A stretch of 56,988 nt of DNA from an uncultured Elusimicrobiales bacterium. Lineage in GTDB: Bacteria; Elusimicrobiota; Elusimicrobia; Elusimicrobiales; Elusimicrobiaceae. Of the stretch, positions 177-38,303 are shown piece by piece. The stretch spans positions 1-56,988 of the forward strand of contig CALUUY010000003.1 of assembly GCA_944324095.1 (NCBI GenBank), given 5' to 3'. The position numbers and the translations under genes are program-made. Within the stretch, counting starts at the first letter, position 1. Each line of letters begins with the position of its first letter. The notes beneath the pieces are model-generated. The model had not been told where the DNA came from, ran no database searches, and saw nothing but the letters and a program-made list of their open reading frames with translations.

Positions 177-424
177 GCGCCTGGGATTAGGTATCTTAAG
201 CGCCCTAAATATTCATAAATAGCCATAAATCCTACAAATTGTAGCGGGAGGAGTAGAAATGCCATTTTAGGCCAAATTTAACGTTCAAAGGTACCTTACA
301 AAAAGTTATAAGAAGGCCCTTTTTGACCATTTTTGAGGGTTCGTTCTCATCGAGAAAGTAAAATTTCCAATAAATAACATTTGCAGAGCAAAAATTGTAA
401 AAACTTCTAAAAGAGAAAGCATAC
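177..424 (-). repeat. Left direct-repeat copy: decayed relic of a serine recombinase 3' end
   Basis: This stretch matches 11366-11616 along almost its whole length in the same orientation, with scattered substitutions and small indels. Shared blocks include GGGATTAGGTAT, CCCTAAATATTCAT, GCCCTTTTTGACCATTTTT and GGTTCGTTCTC. On the minus strand the right copy encodes the recombinase C-terminus. The left copy still encodes ERTLKNGQKGPSYNFL, but a TGA precedes that peptide in frame and a TAA ends it early, so this copy is dead. The paired copies bracket the island. Confidence 0.75.
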
Positions 425-2618: not shown

Positions 2619-2655
2619 TGTATAAGGTTAGAAATTTATTACGGAGAACAAACAA

Positions 2656-2793
2656 ATGAAAACTAAATATTCAAACTCAAAAATCGATCCACAGAAGCTC
2701 AATTACTGGCTTATGAAAAATATTAACACTATGGAGGAATTAACTGTTATGCAACCAGCTTGTTGGGCAGAAGCAGATCATCCAAATGACTAA
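2656..2793 (+). CDS. Candidate RiPP precursor peptide (45 aa)
   Basis: A 45-codon frame is preceded by GGAG (2643-2646) at 9 nt spacing and by an extended -10 promoter, and ends 14 nt before the first radical SAM gene. The N-terminal two thirds are polar and Lys/Asn-rich (MKTKYSNSKIDPQKLNYWL), as in a leader. The C-terminal part, TVMQPACWAEADHPND, holds the only Cys and one of two Trp. Small size, position and three SPASM-type radical SAM neighbours fit a ribosomally made, modified peptide. No known RiPP family motif is recognised. The modified residues cannot be read from sequence; the Cys-Trp pair and the acidic tail are the obvious candidates. Confidence 0.65.
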   Translation: MKTKYSNSKIDPQKLNYWLMKNINTMEELTVMQPACWAEADHPND

Positions 2794-2807: not shown

Positions 2808-3833
2808 ATGTCATTAAAAAAATCGCTACGCTTCTTAAATAAAGACATATATTTCATTATAACGAGAAAATGCAATTATACCTGCCCTTTTTGTATTCGC
2901 AAAAATCTTAAAGAACAGGCCCTTGATATGTCTTTTGAACAAGGGAAAGAAGTCTTGAGCAAACTGTCTGCTTTGTTACCATCTTCCACTATTATAATTA
3001 CTGGAGGAGAACCCTTTTTGCACAAAGACTGCATAGCCTTTGTTAGAAAAGCAATGTCTCTGTTTAAAGTAGTAATACTAACATCCAATGGATCCTTCTC
3101 TTTAGAAAAGGAACAAGAGCTTCTACCTCTATTAACTAAAAACCTATGGTTACAATTATCAATAGATGGCACAGCAGCTATGCATGATAAATTAAGAGGA
3201 AAAGGCGCCTACCATCAAGTTATTGGCAAATTAAAGAATTTACAACAATATGCCAATCATATCTTACTTTCAACTACGGTTGGAATGACGAACTTACACG
3301 ATATTAAAAATTTAGCGCAAGAATTAAATAAATACCTCTTTTATCGGTGGAAAATAACTGAAGAATTAGTCATTAATCCATTAAAAACACCTCTCATTGA
3401 TGTACGAGATTGGAATAATATGGTAGATACGGTTTTACCAATATGTAAGTTTCCTGTTAGAGTACAAAAATTTTTTGATTTTCCATTAATGGATAAATTT
3501 TTAAAAACATACAATCCCCTGAAACATAAATTAATTACTAAGTGTGGTTCTGGAACTAAGACATTTTCTATCAATCCTGATTTTTCTGTTCTTGCCTGCA
3601 CTTGTATGAATGAATCCATTGGAAACATAGCGTTGGAAGATCCCCAAAAAATATTAACTAACCTAGAATCTTTTTGCAATTTAGATCCTGCTGAAAATAG
3701 CATCTGTTTTTCGTGTAAATATAAAGATATTTGTAAAGGAGGTTGCCCAGGATATTCAAAAAAAGTATTTGGGCAATTTAATATGGGAGATATCAGATGT
3801 CCTCTTGTCAAAAAATACTATGAAAAGCATTAG
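2808..3833 (+). CDS. Radical SAM/SPASM protein 1
   Basis: This 341-residue protein has the radical SAM cluster-binding motif CX3CX2C (Cys22, Cys26, Cys29) and a TGGEP motif (SAM amino-group binding) at about residue 65. A C-terminal SPASM-type Cys set follows: CGSGT, ACTC, CFSC, CKGGC and a final Cys near RCPL. SPASM proteins of this layout modify peptides by radical chemistry, using extra Fe-S clusters, and are common in RiPP clusters; they need anaerobic conditions. It follows the 45-aa peptide by 14 nt, with a poor ribosome-binding site that suggests coupling, and its 3' end overlaps the next gene by 14 nt. The reaction cannot be predicted. Confidence 0.85.
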   Translation: MSLKKSLRFLNKDIYFIITRKCNYTCPFCIRKNLKEQALDMSFEQGKEVLSKLSALLPSSTIIITGGEPFLHKDCIAFVRKAMSLFKVVILTSNGSFSLEKEQELLPLLTKNLWLQLSIDGTAAMHDKLRGKGAYHQVIGKLKNLQQYANHILLSTTVGMTNLHDIKNLAQELNKYLFYRWKITEELVINPLKTPLIDVRDWNNMVDTVLPICKFPVRVQKFFDFPLMDKFLKTYNPLKHKLITKCGSGTKTFSINPDFSVLACTCMNESIGNIALEDPQKILTNLESFCNLDPAENSICFSCKYKDICKGGCPGYSKKVFGQFNMGDIRCPLVKKYYEKH

Positions 3834-4749
3834 AGTCCTTTTAACAGAGCAATGTAATGCCAATTGTGCCTTTTGTATTAATAAAACAGCGCGAGGCTCG
3901 TCTTTGATGGATGTGCCTCGATTTAAACATATGTGTGATTATTTTAAAAGAAATCACATAACAGGAATTAAAATCATGGGGGGAGAGCCCACCACCCACC
4001 CACACTGCATAGAAATGCTTGAAATGGCCCAGCAATCATTTCAAAAAGTATCTCTATTCACTAATGCTATTAATGATACTATTCTTCAATTTAAGCCACG
4101 CAAAAATGATGGGATAAATTATAACTTCTCTTTTTATAAAACGCTTTCTAAAAAGAAACTTCTACTAGATTATCCTGGATACAGAGCTCTCGAAATAATT
4201 ATTCACAAAGACACCGATGAAAAAAATATACTAAAAAGCATCTTATCACTAACTCGAGGAGAAACAAAACGTTTTTCCATATTGCTAACCTTGAATTGTA
4301 CAGAAGATATATTTGCGCATAGAAACATTTTGGTATATAAAATAGAAAAAATTTTTTCAACTTGCAAAGAAGCAGGACTTCAGACATCGTTTGACCACAG
4401 CATCCCTATATGTTTTATATATGGCACCAAAATACCTATCTTTCGCAAAGGAGCTTTTTGTGATTTGTCCTGTGCTGGATTAATAGACGCAGATTTTAAT
4501 TTATGTTTTTGTAATCAACATCCACAAAAACTAATTAATCTATTTAATGAACAAGGAGAAATCTTACCTATTCAAATCCTTGAAAATCATCTTAAATATA
4601 TACACTTCCAAAATCAAATAACTGCTTTGAATAAAATTTGTTTAAATTGCATATTTTTCGACAGAATGTGTAATGGCGGTTGTTTTATAACGAACAGAAC
4701 CATTACCATCAACTCCATACTGCAAAACACAGCACTTCCAACAATGTAA
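3820..4749 (+). CDS. Radical SAM/SPASM protein 2
   Basis: Start ATG 3820 is chosen because the radical SAM motif then lies at the usual N-terminal place (Cys12, Cys16, Cys19 in QCNANCAFC). An upstream start at 3769 would add 17 residues encoded inside the preceding gene. The protein is 309 residues with MGGEP and several C-terminal Cys pairs (CDLSC, CFC, CLNC, CNGGC), i.e. SPASM/Twitch-like auxiliary cluster ligands. It overlaps gene 1 by 14 nt and is followed by gene 3 after 4 nt, so the three radical SAM genes are tightly coupled. It is too different from its neighbours to be a recent tandem duplicate. Confidence 0.82.
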   Translation: MKSIRVLLTEQCNANCAFCINKTARGSSLMDVPRFKHMCDYFKRNHITGIKIMGGEPTTHPHCIEMLEMAQQSFQKVSLFTNAINDTILQFKPRKNDGINYNFSFYKTLSKKKLLLDYPGYRALEIIIHKDTDEKNILKSILSLTRGETKRFSILLTLNCTEDIFAHRNILVYKIEKIFSTCKEAGLQTSFDHSIPICFIYGTKIPIFRKGAFCDLSCAGLIDADFNLCFCNQHPQKLINLFNEQGEILPIQILENHLKYIHFQNQITALNKICLNCIFFDRMCNGGCFITNRTITINSILQNTALPTM

Positions 4750-4753
4750 TTTT

Positions 4754-5902
4754 ATGAATTCTACATCAAATTATTATTTTAGTAGGAAAATAAGTATTAC
4801 TACCAACCTATTTTGCAACCTACATTGTAATTACTGTTATGAAAATAAATATTCCAATAGATCCTTTGATCTAGACAGAACAATATATAAATTAAATTGG
4901 TACTTAAATGCCCCAACTTCCAAAGGGACTGTTATAGATTTGCACGGGGGAGAACCTTTTTTAATCTTTGAAAAAATTTGTCAGCTATGTGAATCCCTTT
5001 GGAGCCAAACATTTAAAGAAAATTTTATTATCCACACCACAACAAATGGCACATTAGTACATGGCAAAATAAAGCATTGGCTTCAAAAAAATAGGTCTAA
5101 ATTTCATGTAAAACTCAGTTTAGACGGATGTGAAAAAGCACATAATTTAAATAGGTGCAACTCCTTCTCTCAAATAGACTGTGATTTCTTTGCCCAAAAT
5201 TGGCCAAAAGAATATGTTAAAGTCACGGTCAGTCCCGAGTCCCTCCCATATTTAGCTGAGAGCATTGCTTTCCTTCATACAAAATTCAAAAAAATTCAAG
5301 TAAATTTTGCAGAACTAATCGACTGGAATACACCAAATCTTCTTTCAACTTATAAGGGGCAATTACTTCAATTATCTCAATTTTATACTGAGCATCCTTA
5401 CTACCTGCGATGTTCCCTTTTTACGTTAAATTATTTGAAATTACTAAATAAGCGCCCATTACACTCAGAAAAGCTATGTTCAAATGGACGAAAAATTGCT
5501 TTTGATATCGATGGAAACGAAGAATATCCTTGCCAACTAGTTCTACCAAGTGTATGTGGAGTTAAAAAAGCACAAAAATTTCGACAAATTATGACAGATT
5601 CACATCAGGTATGTTTTATTTCAAATAAATGCAGAAAATGCCCATTACATCCTTTATGTGATACCTGTTATGGAGCTAATTTCATTGCAAGAAATGCCGT
5701 CTATAAAAGGGATTTAAATCTATGTTTAGCGCAAAAGTTAAAAATTTGGGCTATTACAAAATATGATTACAACCGAATCATTAACCAAGTTAACACTACT
5801 TTGCTCCAAGAAGACAAATGTAACAATATAATTACTATGCAAGGAATTAAAAAAATACTGCCGGCACTATTGCAGCTAGAAAGCATATTTCAAACCATAT
5901 AA
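4754..5902 (+). CDS. Radical SAM/SPASM protein 3
   Basis: A 382-residue radical SAM protein: Cys21, Cys25 and Cys28 form CX3CX2C in FCNLHCNYCYE, with an HGGEP motif near residue 57. The C-terminus has the fullest SPASM pattern of the three (LCSNG, YPCQL, KCRKCP, LCDTCYG, NLCLA). The CxxxCxxCYE plus HGGEP signature resembles the sulfatase-maturase/peptide-modifying branch. It starts 4 nt after the previous stop with no clear ribosome-binding site, so translation is probably coupled. The A-PCP gene follows 20 nt downstream. Confidence 0.85.
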   Translation: MNSTSNYYFSRKISITTNLFCNLHCNYCYENKYSNRSFDLDRTIYKLNWYLNAPTSKGTVIDLHGGEPFLIFEKICQLCESLWSQTFKENFIIHTTTNGTLVHGKIKHWLQKNRSKFHVKLSLDGCEKAHNLNRCNSFSQIDCDFFAQNWPKEYVKVTVSPESLPYLAESIAFLHTKFKKIQVNFAELIDWNTPNLLSTYKGQLLQLSQFYTEHPYYLRCSLFTLNYLKLLNKRPLHSEKLCSNGRKIAFDIDGNEEYPCQLVLPSVCGVKKAQKFRQIMTDSHQVCFISNKCRKCPLHPLCDTCYGANFIARNAVYKRDLNLCLAQKLKIWAITKYDYNRIINQVNTTLLQEDKCNNIITMQGIKKILPALLQLESIFQTI

Positions 5903-5922
5903 ACCTTAACCCAAGTATATTT

Positions 5923-8856
5923 ATGCCTACAATAATTGATTGTATACGAGAACAAATTAGAATAAACCCAAACAAGTCAGCCATAATATGTGAAAATAGG
6001 CAGTATACATTTACCAACATTGGCCATATAGCTACTATTATCTCTCAACAACTCTCTGATAAAGGAATTAAAAAGGGAGATCGAGTAGCCGTTTTAGCAT
6101 CCAGATCGGAGTTGGGTGTTTTATTGGCTATTTCTATTATGAATATAGGGGCCATTTATATACCTCTAGATGAACGAACTCCTAAAAATAGATTATTAGA
6201 TATTTTCCGGTCGGCTAGAATAAAAATATTGGTTGGAGAAAAAGGTTTAATCAAACCTATACTAAACAGCAAACTCCCTTTTATCGCCATGTTTTATTCT
6301 ATTTATGATTTGCATGACTATACTTCAGCGGATGTAAGTATCTGTTTAAATAAAATAGACACTTATTCTAAAGCGGTTACAATATTTACTTCTGGTTCAA
6401 CAGGACGACCAAAGGGTATTACACACTCACATCAGGCATTATATATCTACAACAAAACTGCATTAGAAAATTCAGAATTGCATCCAGATGATAAATTAAT
6501 TGTTGCTGTTAACTATTGCTATACTTTTAGTCTCGAAATGTTTCAAGCTCTCATAAATGGAAACACGCTGTATATTGCTACAAATAAAATGCTCACAGAT
6601 CTTTCCTTGTTACACTTTTATATTAACAAACAAGAAATCACAGTCGCACTAATGCCAACACAAATAGGGCATCTATTTATTACAACAGGCAGAAAATCTC
6701 ATCTTAGGTTATTGATTATTGGAGGAGGGATATTGCCCCAATTAACTCAATTCCCGAAATATCAAATCTTAAGCGATTACGGCTGTTCAGAAGGATTATT
6801 TATAGGATCTCATAAAATTTCTCCGGATACGCATAACAATATACTAGACAAAATTAGTAAACATCTAAAGTACCAAATTGTAGATGAATTTAATCATCAA
6901 GTAGGTATAGGAAAAGTAGGAGAATTATGGATTTCTGGCCCTACTGTTGTCAGAGAATATACAGATCTTCCCCAATTAACAAATAATAAATTTGTCCACC
7001 AAAATGGAATACAATGGTATAAAACTGGAGACAAATTCAAGATTCTTCCAAATAATACTTATCAATTTGCCGGACGAACCGACAGAATGATAAAAATTGG
7101 TAATCAACGCATAGAACCATTTGAAATCGAGTTGTGTATTTCTAAAATTTCTAAAATCACTCAGTCTTTTGTCTGTTTAAAACAGGTTAATATGCGTCCT
7201 TACCTTTGTGCTTATTATATCTCAAGAAATAATAAAGAAGTTAAGGGAATACGTAAAAAATTATCAAAATACTTCCCTAATTATATGATCCCTGCTTTTT
7301 TTATAAAATTGCGGCATTTTCCGACTACGTCGAATGGAAAAATAGACCCCACACAATTGCCTACATCTCAATTATTGCGCAAAGAAAGAGCATTTCTCCC
7401 CAAAGAGGAAGAAGAAACGCTATTAAATTGTATTACTCAAGTCTTGTCCCTTAAACAAAAAATTGGACTTGACGATAATTTTACTGATATTGGAGGGAAC
7501 TCGGTAGACGCATTGTACTTAATTTCAGAATTAAGAAAACATCATATATTTATCACCCTCAAAGAACTACTAACCGCAAAAAAATTTCGAGAATTAATTC
7601 TAAAAAAAGATAAAAAACATTCCACTCGCACGAATAATTATGGAAAATTAATTTGCAGACTTCCCCCTCTTTTGAATTATTTAATTTCTCATAACTCAGC
7701 AGAATCCCTTAACAGATTTGTGATCCCAGAATTTTTTTGTTGCCCGCCAACAACTACTTTAAAGCATTTAGAAAAAGTTGTCAGAAATTTATTAAAAAGA
7801 CACGATATGTTAAGAGCTCTATTAAAAGAGGATGGCTTTCATATACAGGATGAAAAAGCCTCTTCATTATTTTGTCTGAAAGAAAAATGCTTAGATGGCA
7901 ACTCCAACGAAAATAATAACCAACTCAAACTTTTAATTGAAGAATTATATAAAAGTATCGATGTGCATAACGGGCCATTATTTGCTGTTTTCCTTGTTCG
8001 TGGCAAAAATTCTGCCTACATTTTAACAGCATGTAGTCATTTGATCTCTGATAATTTTTCCAAAAACATTTTGAAACAAGACTTTATCACCATTTTTTGT
8101 AATCTAATGGCAGATAAATCGACTCTACCTCTTCCAAAGATTAGCACCCCTTACTCGTATCATGCACATACACCAAGCTATCTTCACCTTTCCAAACATA
8201 AACCTTCCAATGTCTCTTTAAGGAAATATGACACTCTATCTAGCAAATTGGATAACAATGATTATCACAAAGTCTGTCTTTTATTAAAAAACAAAGACAG
8301 TGATTTAGTTTCATGTATGTTAATTCTGCTAATAAAAAGCTGGCATGAAATATTAGGAACCCAAAATTTTAATTTCATATTATTTCGCCATGGAAGAGAT
8401 CTCCTTAAAAACAGTCAAAATGGTCATATATCATTTGACCATACTGTTGGCTTTTTCCCTGTATGTCATAAAATTCAATTTTCATTTGCCCCAGAAATCT
8501 CTTTAATATCCAATATTAGATTAATCCATAATTCAATACAAGAAGCTAAAAAAAAGAATGAATATTTTGATTTTTTACAGGAAGACCAAACGCCTCTTTT
8601 CGGATTTAATTATCTTGGAGAAACTAGAGATTTTATAGATTATAAGAATCCCTTTTTATCACGACCCATAGATATTCCTAAGGGGATATATACACCTAAT
8701 AATTTAGACATGGGGGCCCCTTTTATGATATTTATGCATAAAATCAGCGACAAAATTATATTGCAAATTCGATATAACAAACAAATGTATAGAAGATCTT
8801 TTATAACCGCTCTTTTTAAAAGAATAAAATCTAATATTTCTGATATAAACCATTAA
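5923..8856 (+). CDS. NRPS-like protein: adenylation, carrier, epimerase/condensation-like domains
   Basis: This 977-residue protein is laid out A-PCP-E, like stand-alone initiation modules such as GrsA or TycA. Adenylation domain (about 1-490): TSGSTGRPKG (156-165), DYGCSEG, YKTGD, GRTDRMIKIG, and NGK with catalytic-type Lys473. The A4 region (YCYTFSLEMF, 198-207) lacks the Asp that normally holds the substrate alpha-amino group. Carrier domain: DIGGNS with the pantetheine Ser527. Residues about 590-977 are a condensation-superfamily domain of epimerisation type: SHLISDN (705-711) in place of HHxxxDG, keeping His706 and Asp710; HGRD (823-826); TVGFF; FNYLG (895-899). The epimerase Glu of EGHGRE appears to be Phe. 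No thioesterase or further module is present. Clustering with radical SAM genes and a small peptide suggests the activated unit is used on, or together with, the ribosomal peptide. Confidence 0.85.
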   Translation: MPTIIDCIREQIRINPNKSAIICENRQYTFTNIGHIATIISQQLSDKGIKKGDRVAVLASRSELGVLLAISIMNIGAIYIPLDERTPKNRLLDIFRSARIKILVGEKGLIKPILNSKLPFIAMFYSIYDLHDYTSADVSICLNKIDTYSKAVTIFTSGSTGRPKGITHSHQALYIYNKTALENSELHPDDKLIVAVNYCYTFSLEMFQALINGNTLYIATNKMLTDLSLLHFYINKQEITVALMPTQIGHLFITTGRKSHLRLLIIGGGILPQLTQFPKYQILSDYGCSEGLFIGSHKISPDTHNNILDKISKHLKYQIVDEFNHQVGIGKVGELWISGPTVVREYTDLPQLTNNKFVHQNGIQWYKTGDKFKILPNNTYQFAGRTDRMIKIGNQRIEPFEIELCISKISKITQSFVCLKQVNMRPYLCAYYISRNNKEVKGIRKKLSKYFPNYMIPAFFIKLRHFPTTSNGKIDPTQLPTSQLLRKERAFLPKEEEETLLNCITQVLSLKQKIGLDDNFTDIGGNSVDALYLISELRKHHIFITLKELLTAKKFRELILKKDKKHSTRTNNYGKLICRLPPLLNYLISHNSAESLNRFVIPEFFCCPPTTTLKHLEKVVRNLLKRHDMLRALLKEDGFHIQDEKASSLFCLKEKCLDGNSNENNNQLKLLIEELYKSIDVHNGPLFAVFLVRGKNSAYILTACSHLISDNFSKNILKQDFITIFCNLMADKSTLPLPKISTPYSYHAHTPSYLHLSKHKPSNVSLRKYDTLSSKLDNNDYHKVCLLLKNKDSDLVSCMLILLIKSWHEILGTQNFNFILFRHGRDLLKNSQNGHISFDHTVGFFPVCHKIQFSFAPEISLISNIRLIHNSIQEAKKKNEYFDFLQEDQTPLFGFNYLGETRDFIDYKNPFLSRPIDIPKGIYTPNNLDMGAPFMIFMHKISDKIILQIRYNKQMYRRSFITALFKRIKSNISDINH

Positions 8857-9562: not shown

Positions 9563-11317
9563 ATGGCAAATATACAAGAAGAAATAAAAATTTTAAGGAA
9601 ATTACATAAAAAATTAGAAGAAGTGTCTGACAATACTCTACTTCCCTTACTCGCATATAAATATATTTACATTCAAGATCCAGAAGACCTCAGGTATAGT
9701 GATTTTAAAAAAGTAATAGTCGATGGGCCTAACGATGGAGGAATTGATGCAATCTTCAATCATCCAGAAGACGATCGATTAATACTTCTTCAATCAAAAA
9801 ATTATTCCCAGGATATTTCCGCCAAAGACACGATTCTCAATGCTTTTCGCAAAATAAACGCTACTTTAAAAGACTTGAAAAATCTTCAAACTGCTAACTA
9901 TAATAAAAAGTTAAGAAGTGCTTGGAGCAATCTCTATGATGAAGACAAGTCCATAGAAGTCGTATTTTTGACCTCAGCCAACATAACAAAAGAGCTCATA
10001 ACTACAATCAAAAACAAACTAGACCAAGAAGAAATGCCGTTCCAAGCGACCATTTACACTAAACATGATCTAGAATTCTTTATTGATAATTCGGAAAATT
10101 CTTCTCCTTGGGTGCAATCGGCAACGTTGGATATAGACAAAAATAATAAATGTTTATGTCCCAATAATGATAATGGGGTAATTGTAAATATAACTGCTAC
10201 TAGTCTGAAACGAATCTATGATATTTACAACATCAAACTTTTCCAGCAAAATTTTAGATATTTTATTAAAGATAAAAAAGTGGATCCTAAAATTGTAGAA
10301 AGCATACAAAAAAACAGCAATCTTTTTTGGTTTTTAAATAATGGGATTATTATTGCCTGTAAAGATTTTCGCTTAGATGGAGATAAACTCCGGTTGGAAG
10401 ATTTTTCTATTATCAATGGATGCCAAACCACATCCCTTATTGGCGAACACAACTTTTCTAACGACTTTTATTTAACCTGCAAAGTAGTAAAAGCTCCCTC
10501 CCCCGAAGAACAAGATGCGTTCGTCAGCAAAATAGCAGAAGCCTCTAATAGGCAAAAAGCTATCAAACCTAGGGATTTAAAATCGACAGATAAAGCTATG
10601 CGAAAGCTGCAAATGGATTTGAAAAAAGAGATACCAGCCCCTTCTATATTCTTAGAAATTCGCAGAGGAGAAAAAGCTCCGCGCAATGCTGAAAAACTAA
10701 AAAATGACCTCTATGGACAGCTCGTTTTGTCTTTTATGTTACAACAACCTGCTAAAGCACGGAATAGTAGCCGCACTATGTTTGATTCTCCCAGCCTTTA
10801 TAGTGCCATATTTAAGAGAAAAAACTTTGACAAAGAAGCCATTGTAGATTTATGGGACTTATATAAAAGTTTTATGGACTACAAAGATAAAAAACTTAAG
10901 GATGGTAATTTCTCTATCGAAGAAGCCGAAACAATGATTGAATATATCCATTTCTTTGTGCTTGCCATAGCTGGTTTAATTGTAAAAGTTAAAAGAGGCC
11001 TGTTTGACATTACTGCAAAAGATTGTTTTTCCTCTCCAGAAGGAGAAAAGAAATTACAAGAAGATAATATACAAGGCCGTTTTTTAAATAAAGAAATAAT
11101 GGACCATGACACTATTTTATTTGGTTTCTTTGATTGTATTTTGGAAGACCTAACTAATATTTTCAAAGATCATAAGAATAGTATCGGTACGGAAGCAAAT
11201 TTTACAAAAGTTACGGAGCATTACCCTAAATTAGTGCTTCCTTTTATAAAGGATCGTTTCTTTATAAATGATTACCAAAAGAAATTAAGGAAGGACTTCT
11301 TAAACTTATTCAAATAG
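9563..11317 (+). CDS. AIPR-family (abortive infection phage resistance) protein
   Basis: A 584-residue protein whose centre carries the AIPR signature: FWFLNNGIIIAC, then IINGCQTTSL. AIPR proteins (Pfam AIPR) occur in phage-defence loci and are linked to abortive infection or restriction. The N-terminal 150 residues look like a restriction-endonuclease-type fold: NDGGIDAIF with Asp62, then LILLQSKNY with Gln77 and Lys79, matching D-(E/Q)-x-K. That would make it a nuclease fused to an AIPR module. The start has AAGGG upstream. It is a single-gene unit between the MATE remnant and the truncated recombinase, in typical accessory DNA. The target is unknown. Confidence 0.8.
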   Translation: MANIQEEIKILRKLHKKLEEVSDNTLLPLLAYKYIYIQDPEDLRYSDFKKVIVDGPNDGGIDAIFNHPEDDRLILLQSKNYSQDISAKDTILNAFRKINATLKDLKNLQTANYNKKLRSAWSNLYDEDKSIEVVFLTSANITKELITTIKNKLDQEEMPFQATIYTKHDLEFFIDNSENSSPWVQSATLDIDKNNKCLCPNNDNGVIVNITATSLKRIYDIYNIKLFQQNFRYFIKDKKVDPKIVESIQKNSNLFWFLNNGIIIACKDFRLDGDKLRLEDFSIINGCQTTSLIGEHNFSNDFYLTCKVVKAPSPEEQDAFVSKIAEASNRQKAIKPRDLKSTDKAMRKLQMDLKKEIPAPSIFLEIRRGEKAPRNAEKLKNDLYGQLVLSFMLQQPAKARNSSRTMFDSPSLYSAIFKRKNFDKEAIVDLWDLYKSFMDYKDKKLKDGNFSIEEAETMIEYIHFFVLAIAGLIVKVKRGLFDITAKDCFSSPEGEKKLQEDNIQGRFLNKEIMDHDTILFGFFDCILEDLTNIFKDHKNSIGTEANFTKVTEHYPKLVLPFIKDRFFINDYQKKLRKDFLNLFK

Positions 11318-11365
11318 TTGCTATACATCTTACACCATTCTCTTGCTTATTCTTACATAACATAG

Positions 11366-11616
11366 GGCGCTTGGGATTAGGTATCCCAAGTGCCCTAAAT
11401 ATTCATCAATAACCACAAACCCTAAAGTTGTAGCGGACGGGCCCAAAATGCCATTTTTAGGCCGAATTTAATACCTCAAGTCGCCTTGCAAAAAGTTATA
11501 GGAAGGGCCTTTTTGACCATTTTTAAGGGTTCGTTCTCGTCGGGAAAGCAAAATATGCCAATAAATAACATTGGTGGAGAAAAAGTTGTAAAAATATTCT
11601 AAAAGCGAACCCCATA
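11366..11616 (-). repeat. Right direct-repeat copy covering the recombinase 3' end
   Basis: The partner of 177-424. It begins with a strong stem-loop (GGGCGCTTGGG / CCCAAGTGCCC, about 11365-11395) just past the recombinase stop, then covers the last codons of the recombinase gene. The stem is weakened in the left copy. The stem-loop has no T-run on the minus strand, so a simple terminator is less likely than a structured end or recombination-associated site. Confidence 0.7.
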
Positions 11617-12487
11617 TTAAATGCTTAGAACTTTTAGGGGATTTTCCCTTAATTTCTAAGCATTTTTTATTTCCTTCCGCAAAAATATTGAACGGTTCGC
11701 GGTATTTTGGGTAAATTTTGTGTCCGTTCAATACAAAATCGCTGGCTATATGGCGCAAAAGCGGCTTTTTTTCTGAGAGCGGAGCCTCGCGATAGATAGT
11801 ACCCATATTACATACCAACTTTAAAATATCCGTGCTTTTTTGCCGTACGGCGTCCGGCTGTATAGTTTGGGCTTGTATTTGCTGTGTAAGCTCGGCAATA
11901 GCCGTTTTTAAGCGTTCTTCCGTGCGTTTTATAAACTCCGCTGGATAGCCCTTTTCCCAGCCCTCGTCATATAACCGTTCTAATTCCGTTTGCTTTTTGC
12001 TTAGTTCCGCTTTAAGCCCGCCCGTCGCCTTGTTTTGGGCCTTTTCCAAGTGTTTTAAGCGTATTTCTATGGCTTTTTGTAGCCACGACACTACTCCCGG
12101 CTTTAAACTAATAGCATCTATCAATGCCGAAAACGCCTCATCCAGCTGATGTTCCCGAATGTATTTTTCGTGCGGATGTTGCCCTTTAGAAAAGGAACAG
12201 CGGTAATACATATATTTCTTTTTAGCAAAATCCCCCACAATAGAACAGCCGCAATCTTTGCAATGAAGCAGATTAGAAAAAGGATAATTGCGGGTAGTCA
12301 CGCGGGGACGCCCAAAAAGGGAGAGAGCCTTATTGGCCCTCTCAAATAACTCTTTTGTGATGAGCGGTTCGTGAATGCCCGGATAGAGTTTCTTGCCCCA
12401 ACGAAAAGTGCCATAATACATCGGGTTATGAAGCACCCGATACAGGGCTCTTTTACACCTTCTACCAGTACAAAAACTCTCCCGCAT
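11468..12487 (-). pseudogene. Large serine recombinase, 5'-truncated (catalytic domain missing)
   Basis: The 339-residue frame begins inside the recombinase domain (RVLHNPMYYGTFRWG). It continues with the zinc ribbon (LHCKDCGC ... YRC), a long coiled-coil region (about 150-210) and a C-terminal tail. These are the DNA-binding parts of large serine integrases/transposases. The N-terminal resolvase domain with the nucleophilic Ser, about 150 residues or more, is absent: the frame starts only about 20 nt after the stop of the neighbouring host gene. The protein could bind DNA but not recombine it. The truncation point is a likely island/host junction. Confidence 0.8.
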
Positions 12488-12508: not shown

Positions 12509-13816
12509 TTATTTTGCCCAAGGCAACACCCAGGCATAATCAAAACCAGTCTGTTTGGCTAGTTCGCGCGCATCCGGCCCACGCCAATAATGTATAGTGG
12601 GAAAGTGAAAGCGCATATCATAAAATGAAAAAGACTCTTTCCATACGCCCGAAAGGACTTCGTCCCCTATCGGAAAAACATAAGAGAGAGCTACAACAGC
12701 CGGGTTCTCGTTAGCAAAAAATTTAGGCAAAGAATACGGATACACCCACGAAGTGTGGCCCAATCCCGCATACACTACAAACAAAGTATCGGGGTCAGTC
12801 TTTCTAATTTGCCGCATTTTACTTTCCATTACCCGCACCCAGGATTGATTACGAAGCATTATTCCACGCAAAGACGCTTCCGCTTTAAACAGGGGCCCTT
12901 GTTCTTTAGAAATCATTTGGTATAAAGCCCGGTCTTCCAACGGATATACTTCTATACCGCCTTGTATCAGAGAATCAAATAATGGCTTGGCATAATCTAC
13001 CACCAATTGGGGGTCTTGTTCCACAAGTTTACCCAACTTTTCTTTGGATACACGGCGGTAATAACTAGCAGTAGTCGTCCCTTCGGGTGCAGCAAGAGCA
13101 GGCAAATCAATAAATTCCGTAAACAATACGATACGGCGCTTAGGATTTAAGTGTTTAAGTTCGTGCAAAAAATCCCCAACCGCTGAGTGAATGCTATCCA
13201 CATAATGCATTTCCCCCAAAATAATCATCTTTTGAGAGGACAACCTCTCGGCCAATTTAGCGGCTACATCTTTGCCGCCAACCACACCTAATTCAGGTTG
13301 GCCCTGTCCCGGGCGGTTTTTAAGCCAGTTTACTTTTTCTATAAAATGTTTGGTTGCTTGTAAAAGCAATTGATTGTTTTTTACCGCAAACTCAGACGGA
13401 ATAGTCATCGGTTGATATAAAGACTGAAAAATGCTATTGGTTGCTATGGCCGGCTCGCTGTCCAACACGCGCTTAATTTCCGCCAGCAGGGCATCGTTTT
13501 TAGCTTTTGTGGCGGCATCTGCCCGTTGGGACAAGTAAGCTTTAGTTGGTGTGTTAAAATCTGTTTGAAAAACTTTTACCTGCCCTTGTTGCTTAAACCG
13601 GTTTTGATGATGTTTCAGCCAAGATTTACCGGCTTTGCGTTGTAAATCTTGCGTTTGTTTAGCAGACAAAAGCCCGGCAGAAGCGCGCAGAGACGACTGG
13701 GAGGCATTTTTGCCTCCTTTGGTTATTATACGGCTAACAGATGAAATATTTTTTTGCGCATACCCGCAAGGCACGGCTAGCAACCCAAACAACAACAAGC
13801 TAATAATTTTATTCAT
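12509..13816 (-). CDS. ChaN/TIKI-like exported protein (paralogue 1)
   Basis: The start at 13816 gives a clean signal peptide (MNKIISLLLFGLLAVPCGYA-Q) and has GGTGGAG upstream; the longer frame from 13846 adds 10 unlikely residues. The mature protein of about 415 residues has the ChaN/TIKI/EreA-superfamily pattern: ILGEMHY (GExH), RRIVLFTEF, and near the end YAGLGHTSW (GxxH). Members include haem-binding lipoproteins and metal-dependent proteases; the function here is not known. Two paralogues lie at 14010-15326 (divergent neighbour) and 37206-38303. Its stop is about 20 nt from the truncated recombinase, so it marks the right edge of conserved chromosome. Confidence 0.75.
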   Translation of the reverse strand: MNKIISLLLFGLLAVPCGYAQKNISSVSRIITKGGKNASQSSLRASAGLLSAKQTQDLQRKAGKSWLKHHQNRFKQQGQVKVFQTDFNTPTKAYLSQRADAATKAKNDALLAEIKRVLDSEPAIATNSIFQSLYQPMTIPSEFAVKNNQLLLQATKHFIEKVNWLKNRPGQGQPELGVVGGKDVAAKLAERLSSQKMIILGEMHYVDSIHSAVGDFLHELKHLNPKRRIVLFTEFIDLPALAAPEGTTTASYYRRVSKEKLGKLVEQDPQLVVDYAKPLFDSLIQGGIEVYPLEDRALYQMISKEQGPLFKAEASLRGIMLRNQSWVRVMESKMRQIRKTDPDTLFVVYAGLGHTSWVYPYSLPKFFANENPAVVALSYVFPIGDEVLSGVWKESFSFYDMRFHFPTIHYWRGPDARELAKQTGFDYAWVLPWAK

Positions 13817-13918
13817 AACTATCATTCTCCACCCAAAATAAGACAAAAACTCTTACTATACAATTTAAAAAATTTACACTTTTTAAAACAGGGTCTTTAA
13901 ACCCATTTTATTTTCTAT

Positions 13919-13946
13919 AAAAGGCCTAGCTTTTTATAGGCCTTTT
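13919..13946. terminator. Hairpin between divergent ChaN/TIKI-like genes
   Basis: AAAAGGCCTA / TAGGCCTTTT is a perfect 10-bp inverted repeat with an 8-nt loop and A/T-rich flanks, so it looks like a bidirectional terminator. It lies upstream of both divergent genes, where a terminator is not needed; it could act as an attenuator or leader structure. A smaller stem (GGGT / ACCC) sits just left at about 13891. Confidence 0.5.
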
Positions 13947-14009
13947 CTACCCTTATTATTAGGGCCAAAGGCTCTTTTGGACTTACCTATAAAAATTTAT
14001 ATTGGTATT

Positions 14010-15326
14010 ATGAGATTTTTAGCTTTTATTTTTTTACTCCTGTTAAGTGCGCCCTTCCATGCGCAAAATCTTCCGCGCGTTTTGACAAAAAACATCACTC
14101 AACAGCAACTTAAACAAACCCTTAAGCAAAAGGCCACAGCAACCAAAAATTTCGTTACATCCTTTCAAAAGCGAGCTTCTTTCTCTAAAACGGGCCAGCG
14201 CAACGCCCCGTCCAACGGCGTATGGCAAGAATTATGGAAAGACCCTCCCCACCGCTTGGAAGAACAAGAATATCCGCTAGACCACAATCCGTTCAGTGAT
14301 TTTAACATCACGTTGCGCCAAATAGAAGCGTTAAAAGAGCAGTATAATGTTTATTACTCGGAAAAGTCCCTTTACCATATGCTGGAACATTCCTACCACC
14401 CCTCATCTTTTGCGCATCATAATAACAAAATGGTTTTACGGGCACTTATCAACCACATTAAAAGAATTCAATGGTTAAACCAATACCCCAATAAAGGCCG
14501 TAACGCTCTTAAGCAGGATAAAGGGGAAAACCCTATTTTCCAACTGGCAAGGCATCTGCAACAAGAAAAGATGATTTTTCTGGGAGAATACCATTTTAAC
14601 CCGGAAATTCAGCAATTTGTCAGCGGTTTAATCTTAGCCCTTAAAGCGCAACAGCCCAAACGGAGAATAGTCGTTTTCACAGAATTTCTTCCGCTTTCCC
14701 CGCGCAAACTGCCGGACGGGCAAACGCTAGAAACCTATTACCGCCGGATTAACCAAAAAGATATGGCCCCTATTTCTTGGATGGACGTATCTTCTTATAC
14801 ATACGCCCAAAATACGTTTAATGAATTATTAAAAAACCGGGTAGAGACATTCCCGCTGGAAGACAAACAACACGTGCAATTAATGTCCCAAGAATACAAT
14901 TCCGAACAGTGTGAGCTTCCCCTATCAGTATCTATACGAAACAAAACCTGGGCCCGCATAATAGAAAACAAAATGGCCCAAATTCGCCAAACGGATCCCG
15001 ATGCTTTGTTTGTGGTGTATGCGGGGCTGGGCCACGTTTCTTGGATTTACCCGTATGCCTTGCCTAAATTTTTTGCTAAAGAAAACCCCTCAGTGGTGTC
15101 TGTTATTCTAAAAGAGCACCTAAAACTAAATTTTTTAACCAATATTTGGGGCCCTAAAGATCCATTTTTTAAATTTCCTAAAACAAATACGGTTTTTTAT
15201 TGGGCCGGCCCCGATGCCCGCCGCTTGGCTACAAATACAGGGTTTGATTATATGGTACCCCTCAGCAAGAACAACTGGCAACGCTTTAAACAATTCTTTA
15301 ATGAATTGGCCGCTATGTTAGATTAA
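14010..15326 (+). CDS. ChaN/TIKI-like exported protein (paralogue 2)
   Basis: The ATG at 14010 begins a signal peptide (MRFLAFIFLLLLSAPFHA-Q); an upstream TTG at 13977 would put charged residues before it. The 438-residue protein shares the family landmarks with its divergent neighbour: FLGEYHF (GExH), RRIVVFTEF, KTWARIIENKM, and YAGLGHVSW. Both also share a YWAGPDAR/YWRGPDAR motif near the end. It is predicted to be periplasmic. The ribosome-binding site is weak. The pair clearly arose by duplication and then diverged; the ligand or substrate is unknown. Confidence 0.75.
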   Translation: MRFLAFIFLLLLSAPFHAQNLPRVLTKNITQQQLKQTLKQKATATKNFVTSFQKRASFSKTGQRNAPSNGVWQELWKDPPHRLEEQEYPLDHNPFSDFNITLRQIEALKEQYNVYYSEKSLYHMLEHSYHPSSFAHHNNKMVLRALINHIKRIQWLNQYPNKGRNALKQDKGENPIFQLARHLQQEKMIFLGEYHFNPEIQQFVSGLILALKAQQPKRRIVVFTEFLPLSPRKLPDGQTLETYYRRINQKDMAPISWMDVSSYTYAQNTFNELLKNRVETFPLEDKQHVQLMSQEYNSEQCELPLSVSIRNKTWARIIENKMAQIRQTDPDALFVVYAGLGHVSWIYPYALPKFFAKENPSVVSVILKEHLKLNFLTNIWGPKDPFFKFPKTNTVFYWAGPDARRLATNTGFDYMVPLSKNNWQRFKQFFNELAAMLD

Positions 15327-37205: not shown

Positions 37206-38303
37206 TTAACGCCAAGACAGAAGAAAATCGTAGGGGGTTTCTATTTTTAAATCACTGCCCATAATAAGGGCCGCTTCTTTACTGTTGGCACGATATATAC
37301 CGTAAACGCCTTCGGGCGGGGCAGGCTGATGTTCAAGCCACATATTCCATATACTTTCCGCACTGCCGGGAATACGCCAACCGTTTGGAATAAAATCAAT
37401 AACAAAAGTTTTGCCCACGTTTAAAGAAAGCGGCACGCTGCCGGCAATGGCATAACTCCAATGCGCTTTACCGCCATATACAAAAAACACGCCCTGCGGG
37501 TCTAAACGGCGCAACTGGGCAATTTTTTCTACAAAGCTTCGGTTGCGTATCTCCTGCCCGCTGGCGGAAATGTATTTACGCACCACCCGCTGGCGCACAT
37601 TGGACAAGGAAGTATTATACAACCGCACCAAAGCCGGGCGCTCAAGCCCAACTAAAAAAACCCCCTGCTCTTTTACCAAAGATTCCAACATCTGTGCGCG
37701 GGACAACCCCTGCTTGCTGTACGGGCCGTTTGGCCCCCAATTAGCGGCGTGGTAAATGGTTCCGTCATCGGCCACGCTTTCGGCCAAAACATAAATATTA
37801 CGGTTAGGATAGGCGGAACGGTAATCTTTAATTAACTGGTAAATTTCCCGGTGGATGGCTTCACGCCCGTGTATCTCCCCCAAAAAAATGAGTTGGGCCG
37901 ATTGCGGTATCAGCCCGGCATAGTCCACACTGCGGGCATATTGTGCTTGAACCGGATTAGGATGATTTAAAAACAGTTCTAAATTCTTTTGAAGAAGCCA
38001 GTGCCTTTGGGCAGATAAAACTTGATTGCGTTTACTAAAAGACGGCGCTACACCTGCCGGGTTATACACGTTTTTATCTTCTTCCGCCAACATTTTAGCC
38101 AAGTTGGCTTTGTTTACTGCAGCTTGTGCGGCTTTTTGCGCACGTAAAGACAAGGTTGTCCCGGCTCGTCCGCCCAATAGGCTAAGCTCAGTTGCCTGCT
38201 TAGACACGGTAACAGCCGCATTTTTACCGGCCGAAACCAACGGCTGGGCCCAGCCGTTACAACCAAACAAAACAAGAAGCAAAAACAATGTATAGCGGTG
38301 CAT
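37206..38303 (-). CDS. ChaN/TIKI-like exported protein (paralogue 3)
   Basis: A 365-residue protein with a signal peptide (MHRYTLFLLLVLFGCNGWA-Q). It shares the family landmarks with the two copies at 12.5-15.3 kb: IFLGEIHGREAIH (GExH), NIYVLAES, FVEKIAQLRRLDPQGVFFVYGG and KAHWSY (GxxHW). The N-terminal ISS/TKGGK-like region is also similar (SAGKNAAVTVSKQ). It is shorter and more diverged. Function unknown; the copper genes next door are separated by a promoter and give no clear link. Confidence 0.72.
   Translation of the reverse strand: MHRYTLFLLLVLFGCNGWAQPLVSAGKNAAVTVSKQATELSLLGGRAGTTLSLRAQKAAQAAVNKANLAKMLAEEDKNVYNPAGVAPSFSKRNQVLSAQRHWLLQKNLELFLNHPNPVQAQYARSVDYAGLIPQSAQLIFLGEIHGREAIHREIYQLIKDYRSAYPNRNIYVLAESVADDGTIYHAANWGPNGPYSKQGLSRAQMLESLVKEQGVFLVGLERPALVRLYNTSLSNVRQRVVRKYISASGQEIRNRSFVEKIAQLRRLDPQGVFFVYGGKAHWSYAIAGSVPLSLNVGKTFVIDFIPNGWRIPGSAESIWNMWLEHQPAPPEGVYGIYRANSKEAALIMGSDLKIETPYDFLLSWR

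Follow-up and report, generated by a model that had tools for sequence, protein, structure and literature searches.

Is the short open reading frame (ORF) at 2656–2793 (+) a precursor gene for a RiPP, a ribosomal peptide that is modified afterwards, here by radical SAM enzymes, and if so what would the neighboring genes contribute to the product? The frame lies within a stretch of 56,988 nucleotides from an uncultured Elusimicrobiales bacterium; this whole stretch is called the window here. Translation gives the 45-aa sequence MKTKYSNSKIDPQKLNYWLMKNINTMEELTVMQPACWAEADHPND, and its sole Cys directly precedes a Trp, in agreement with the initial annotation. A Shine-Dalgarno (SD)-like GGAG is present at 2643–2646 (+), 9 nt 5′ of the ATG, and 14 nt separate the peptide stop from the ATG at 2808 of a radical SAM gene; both spacings are as originally described. 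The extended −10 promoter proposed at the same time exists as a sequence (TGGTATAAT, 2610–2618, +), but it is absent from the list returned by a two-hexamer promoter scan. As there are 7 copies of TGNTATAAT in the window against 2.9 expected, the element is a plausible promoter of the peptide ORF and not proof of one. The peptide has no family match in Pfam, NCBIfam, PADLOC or PHROGs. How readily such a frame arises by chance was estimated with a first-order Markov model of the 790-nt upstream region, by criteria chosen after the ORF was seen: in 33 of 20,000 simulations there was an ORF of 40 aa or longer that had an SD-like site and stopped no more than 40 nt from the following gene.

The ORF heads a compact five-gene operon, in the order putative precursor, rSAM1, rSAM2, rSAM3 and NRPS module, with successive gaps of 14, −14, 4 and 20 nt. 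rSAM1 (2808–3833, +; 341 aa) is a radical SAM/SPASM protein. rSAM2 (3820–4749, +; 309 aa) is a radical SAM protein with a partial SPASM-like C-terminus (CX2CX6CX3C), and its true start is probably the ATG at 3820, overlapping rSAM1 by 14 nt. rSAM3 (4754–5902, +; 382 aa) is a second radical SAM/SPASM protein. These are the three radical enzymes of the initial annotation, and all contain CX3CX2C. The fifth gene (5923–8856, +) encodes a 977-aa NRPS module. No SD-like sequence was found in the 14-nt leader of rSAM1, which is consistent with translational coupling to the peptide ORF. This, together with the start of rSAM1 only 14 nt past the ORF, would also suit a translated regulatory leader, i.e. 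a coupling or attenuation peptide for rSAM1 that is no substrate of the enzymes.

A relative of the operon bears on this question. In a Bacteroidales genome from horse feces (locus L042) a 45-aa ORF lies beside homologues of rSAM1 and rSAM3. The locus was one of 80 returned by a search of genome contigs with the rSAM3 profile and not with the peptide, and the peptide match therefore counts as independent. The L042 peptide, MLNQGMSQMGANVNAWLAMNYEHMEASTVNAPACWYDGTDGTCSA, is exactly 45 aa from its ATG, which is preceded by an SD-like site as in the window, and it has no Pfam or PHROGs family. The two peptides have the pattern NxWLxxN...ME..TV..PACW in common, and in the window the conserved block runs from L15 to W37. 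The window peptide has one Cys, at PACW, and in both peptides (n = 2) there is Thr at Cys−6 and an acidic residue at Cys+3; apart from that acidic residue the last 8–10 residues differ. The Cys-Trp pair that had been singled out as a likely core lies inside the invariant block.

The Smith-Waterman score of the two peptides is 65, with the runner-up at 42 among the 15,396 short ORFs of all loci collected by that point, and the maximum in 20,000 shuffles was 55. With two sequences only, each as short as 45 aa, an accidental likeness between chance ORFs has to be considered, but the gap between 65 and 42 at a homologous position, and the rarity of such an ORF with an SD-like site in the simulations above, make it extremely improbable. 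Of 23 aligned codons, 12 encode identical residues, 4/12 of them by different codons, and the differences at codon positions 1, 2 and 3 number 7, 9 and 12. Since residues are kept through changed codons and the third position is the most variable, the pattern supports selection on the peptide sequence, although the counts are small. Conservation of the amino acid sequence including PACW, beyond mere position, also argues against the regulatory leader, as does the location of the L042 ORF 5′ of the rSAM3 homologue, with a gap of 71 nt, and not 5′ of rSAM1. We consider a leader of this kind improbable. Conservation in relatives had been set in advance as the test of the precursor, and the frame is intact in one independent relative, where the length, PACW and the radical SAM neighbors are also kept. 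Given the conserved frame in L042 and an alignment score of 65 where no other short ORF exceeds 42, we are confident that 2656–2793 encodes the precursor of a radical-SAM-modified peptide.

The genes around the L042 peptide differ from those in the window. The rSAM1 and rSAM3 homologues (37% and about 40% identical respectively) are adjacent. Where the window has rSAM2 and the NRPS module, L042 has a GT61-like glycosyltransferase gene (11117–12220) that overlaps the end of rSAM1, and neither an NRPS match nor rSAM2 was found in the 19-kb stretch. The first remark, on three radical enzymes alongside one short peptide, holds for the window, but the relative has two only, and three are therefore not required for the PACW type of peptide; the dense or multi-step modification proposed with that remark is a conjecture. 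Upstream of the L042 PACW peptide there are two more related short Cys-containing ORFs (8343–8734), with CSEI[IV]FL...SMC. These may be the true rSAM3 substrates at that locus, and the Bacteroidales cluster may have three peptides as products.

The window and L042 peptides are the only PACW members found; no third member appeared in 1,590 genome look-ups, repeats included. Searching 294 Elusimicrobiota genomes with rSAM1 gave matches at E ≤ 1e-12 in 40/294, and those outside the window (best 6e-20, 25–30% identity) were set aside as ordinary radical SAM proteins. A profile built from the rSAM1 pair (A2) found rSAM1 in the window's own genome only, among 66 genomes of its genus. It gave no new member in the 48 genomes behind the collected loci, 393 Bacteroidales, 173 genomes of the family of L042, 196 + 25 genomes of two other classes, or 391 genomes of the class of G303, a set that overlaps the 196. 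In several scans scoring was confined to the 5 to 10 top-ranking first-look candidates of each genome, and weak members may have been missed for that reason. The neighborhoods of the better weak matches (L143–L147, L154–L159 and L170) proved to be unrelated radical SAM loci with no similar peptide, in a check that used ORF lists for L154–L156 only within L154–L159 and left out the G1125 and G1168 matches. L170, from a small genome of the class of G303, has three radical SAM genes in tandem (4082–7237, −) that are only distantly similar to the three of the window. Searching the genome contigs collection with rSAM1 alone returned nothing, and viral contigs gave nothing with rSAM1, the peptide DNA pattern or the NRPS, and one weak locus with the rSAM3 profile. 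rSAM1 had 4 weak matches in phages, and on plasmids of Paraclostridium, Agathobacter and Anaerococcus it matched radical SAM loci of other kinds. A tblastn search of plasmids with the peptide gave one match at E 2, which is not credible.

The two lineages are unrelated, and the surroundings of the operon suggest how it reached the window. The operon stretch has 31–34% GC, in an island of 32% overall, and 12500–56988 has 48%. The low-GC island is flanked by direct repeats at 177–417 (+) and 11367–11609 (+) with 82% identity over 244 columns. This contrast in base composition, together with the diverged 244-bp repeats on either side, gives the operon the look of a horizontal acquisition. The right copy shares sequence with the 3′ end of a serine recombinase ORF (11468–12487, −), which it overlaps, and the left may therefore be what is left of another recombinase. 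Bases 1–103 of the window also recur, at 96%, on a different contig of this genome. Within the island, the 446-aa protein upstream (677–2017, +) has no match in Pfam, NCBIfam, PADLOC or PHROGs. Directly 3′ of the operon is an AIPR/AbiU-like abortive-infection gene (9563–11317, +), its protein scoring 126 bits with AbiU and 161 bits with a PHROG Abi alpha-like family. No protease or transporter was seen among the island genes read. The native part encodes three related secreted-looking proteins (12509–15326 and 37206–38303) with a GE[MYI]H motif, in the forms LGEMHYVDS, LGEYHFNPE and LGEIHGREA. Pilin-like genes, along with the size of the genome, would fit a gut bacterium close to Elusimicrobium.

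The presence of the AbiU-like gene raises the alternative that the radical enzymes belong to a defence island, as viperin-like proteins or as others acting on nucleotides or cofactors, with the peptide incidental, and there are weak PADLOC pVip matches of 66, 43 and 38 bits. Yet rSAM1 scores 56.9 bits with the prokaryotic viperin model, below its cut-off of 180, rSAM1 and rSAM3 carry SPASM Cys sets, which viperins are not known to have, and the peptide is conserved in L042. A defence role of this kind is highly improbable, and we return to the enzymes as peptide maturases. rSAM1 is a SPASM enzyme to which none of the named families is close. It reaches 73.2 bits with the SkfB sactipeptide maturase model TIGR04403 (cut-off 300) and 69.9 with the PapB equivalog NF047865 (cut-off 340). 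Its AF2 model (2-row alignment, pLDDT 52) is too poor for use.

rSAM3 is closer to known maturases. In the NCBIfam ranking PapB comes first, at 88.1 bits, and the CXXX-repeat model TIGR04115 second, at 85.5 bits (cut-off 350). The AF2 model has a pLDDT of 88, and the nearest solved fold is that of CteB (PDB 5wgg). Seven SPASM Cys are each present in 90% or more of the 36 aligned rows. In a tree of 36 sequences the window and L042 proteins pair with each other (98/74), and with L041, where the neighbor of rSAM3 is a Cys-rich short ORF, they make up a three-member clade (100/99). rSAM3 is thus a SPASM radical SAM enzyme related to PapB and CteB, as in ranthipeptide maturases, with scores below the equivalog cut-offs. 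We have not placed the pathway in the PapB, SkfB or viperin families, because none of their cut-offs is reached.

Such neighbors are common. At homologues with E ≤ 1e-20, a short ORF carrying three or more Cys toward its end lies within 450 nt in 44/52 loci, compared with 47/223 control genes. Near-duplicates (L038/L048, L052–L054 and L081/L082) are counted among the 52, and a handful of the 44 ORFs are evidently not precursors (e.g. L038, L048 and L065). CxxxC-type precursors are found at many of these loci. rSAM3 is a member of a PapB/CteB-like maturase family that adjoins Cys-rich short ORFs. Beside Bacteroidales homologues there are recurrent ORFs of 44–46 aa ending CGCFGCG[ML]GC[SA]GTVGM or HCSWCTNCSGIVGD (L070, L075, L076, L084, L088 and others). 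In Treponema saccharophilum (L079, 8184–8894) two tandem Cys-rich ORFs of ~100 aa with 18–19 Cys lie beside the homologue. No leader-binding RRE domain was found in the window enzymes with Pfam.

What is an NRPS module doing in this operon? The 977-aa protein has AMP-binding, carrier and condensation-family domains, i.e. adenylation, carrier and epimerisation-type in that order. The core motifs TSGSTG, YKTGD and NGKID are present, and the carrier Ser is found in GGNS. In a MAFFT alignment with three control modules, the position of Asp235 in the adenylation domain, an Asp that marks α-amino acid substrates, is Thr. Reading the substrate from the pocket was abandoned, given that change and a gap in the LgrA alignment that blurs neighboring positions. 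The C-terminal domain has its best solved matches among epimerisation domains in the bacitracin, tyrocidine and gramicidin synthetases, and TIGR01720, an epimerisation-associated model, matches weakly at 18.5 bits (cut-off 74.2). Of the HHxxxDG motif the second His is retained (SHLISDN), but Phe stands at the position of TycA Glu882 (FRHGRD). His743 and Glu882 are the catalytic residues of the TycA epimerase, and only the His of the pair is kept here. With an atypical adenylation pocket and no epimerase Glu, the single module may accept an unusual acid, and its last domain is unlikely to act as a normal epimerase. A search of the genome for further NRPS genes found no partner and one weak AMP-ligase-like match only; there is one AcpS/PPTase-type gene.

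Since the module is absent from the L042 stretch, its link to the peptide is its position in the operon. The precursor could be real and the NRPS module a separate pathway, or a decaying remnant, that shares the operon by chance. The lack of an NRPS match in the 19 kb of L042, of a partner in the genome, and of the Asp235 equivalent and the epimerase Glu all point this way. On the other side, the 977-aa frame is intact with its core adenylation motifs and carrier Ser, and it starts 20 nt 3′ of rSAM3 with the same base composition. We give the separate module appreciable weight while not preferring it. Our preferred reading, which we consider likely, is that the peptide is the precursor at the head of an acquired five-gene operon of radical SAM and NRPS functions.

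A possible pathway can be outlined for this operon. Residues 1 to about 27 would form the leader and the C-terminal part with PACW the core, though the conserved block spans the central part of the peptide and leaves the border between them loose. The two enzymes shared with L042, rSAM1 and rSAM3, would act on the PACW region. By analogy with related enzymes it is possible, though not the favored outcome, that rSAM3 ties the single Cys to a nearby residue by a thioether. The candidate acceptors would be the conserved Thr at Cys−6, compare Cys-Thr of the CteB type, and the acidic residue at Cys+3, compare Cys-Asp/Glu of the PapB type. rSAM1 might alter this peptide too, with the conserved Trp as a possible site, and rSAM2 would add an extra step in the window lineage only. 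rSAM2 and the NRPS module would then perform later, lineage-specific tailoring. With low confidence, we suggest that the module activates a carboxylic acid, probably no plain α-amino acid, loads its own carrier, and that the C-terminal domain, with its His kept and Glu gone, hands the acid to the modified peptide. Acyl or aminoacyl transfer by the module is in our estimation doubtful. The final reaction might be acylation at the N-terminus of the released core, given that there is no Lys from T30 onward. Taken together, the product would be a ribosomal and nonribosomal hybrid, a cross-linked PACW peptide with a non-standard acid joined by the remodelled epimerase domain of a dedicated single NRPS module, acting as a transferase. 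As a complete scheme this is speculative and on balance unlikely.

These results indicate a new type of radical-SAM RiPP precursor, with conserved PACW, in two unrelated gut lineages, and one smaller than many gene callers accept. The precursor type appears to move by horizontal transfer while the tailoring genes change, an NRPS module and third radical enzyme in one case and a GT61-like enzyme in the other. Were the NRPS to act on the peptide, ribosomal and nonribosomal assembly would meet directly, which is unusual, and one could test here whether an epimerisation-type domain has become a transferase. Searches of open-licence papers in PubMed Central brought up no operon that combines a radical-SAM RiPP with an NRPS module.

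Among known systems the window pathway resembles that of a radical-SAM RiPP, with a ranthipeptide-like rSAM3. PapB makes ranthipeptides with Cys-X3-Asp/Glu links and accepts Cys-Xn-Asp with n = 0–6 (PMC9413430). rSAM3 is a PapB-like SPASM enzyme, and the short window peptide has an acidic residue after its Cys. However, that peptide has one Cys and not six motifs, rSAM3 is far under the equivalog cut-off, and the window adds two radical enzymes and the NRPS module. The CteB/SCIFF maturases offer the nearest solved fold. CteB has an N-terminal RRE and a six-Cys substrate, whereas rSAM3 has no N-terminal extension and the window substrate is not six-Cys. Cys-Thr links are reported for CteB (PMC10352776), and the window peptide has its conserved Thr at Cys−6. 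The CXXX-repeat maturases (TIGR04115) provide the second-best model of rSAM3, but the window peptide is repeat-free and the score is below the cut-off of 350. In the lipolanthine microvionin a RiPP is coupled to a moiety of fatty acid/polyketide origin (PMC10373908). The likeness is a ribosomal peptide and assembly-line-type chemistry in one pathway, and the difference is that lanthipeptide enzymes act there and radical SAM enzymes here. No lanthipeptide synthetase was found among the window operon proteins with Pfam and NCBIfam. Finally, the A-T-E initiation modules GrsA and TycA have the same domain order as the 977-aa protein, but no downstream NRPS partner was found in the window genome, and the module has Thr at the Asp235 position and Phe at that of the epimerase Glu.
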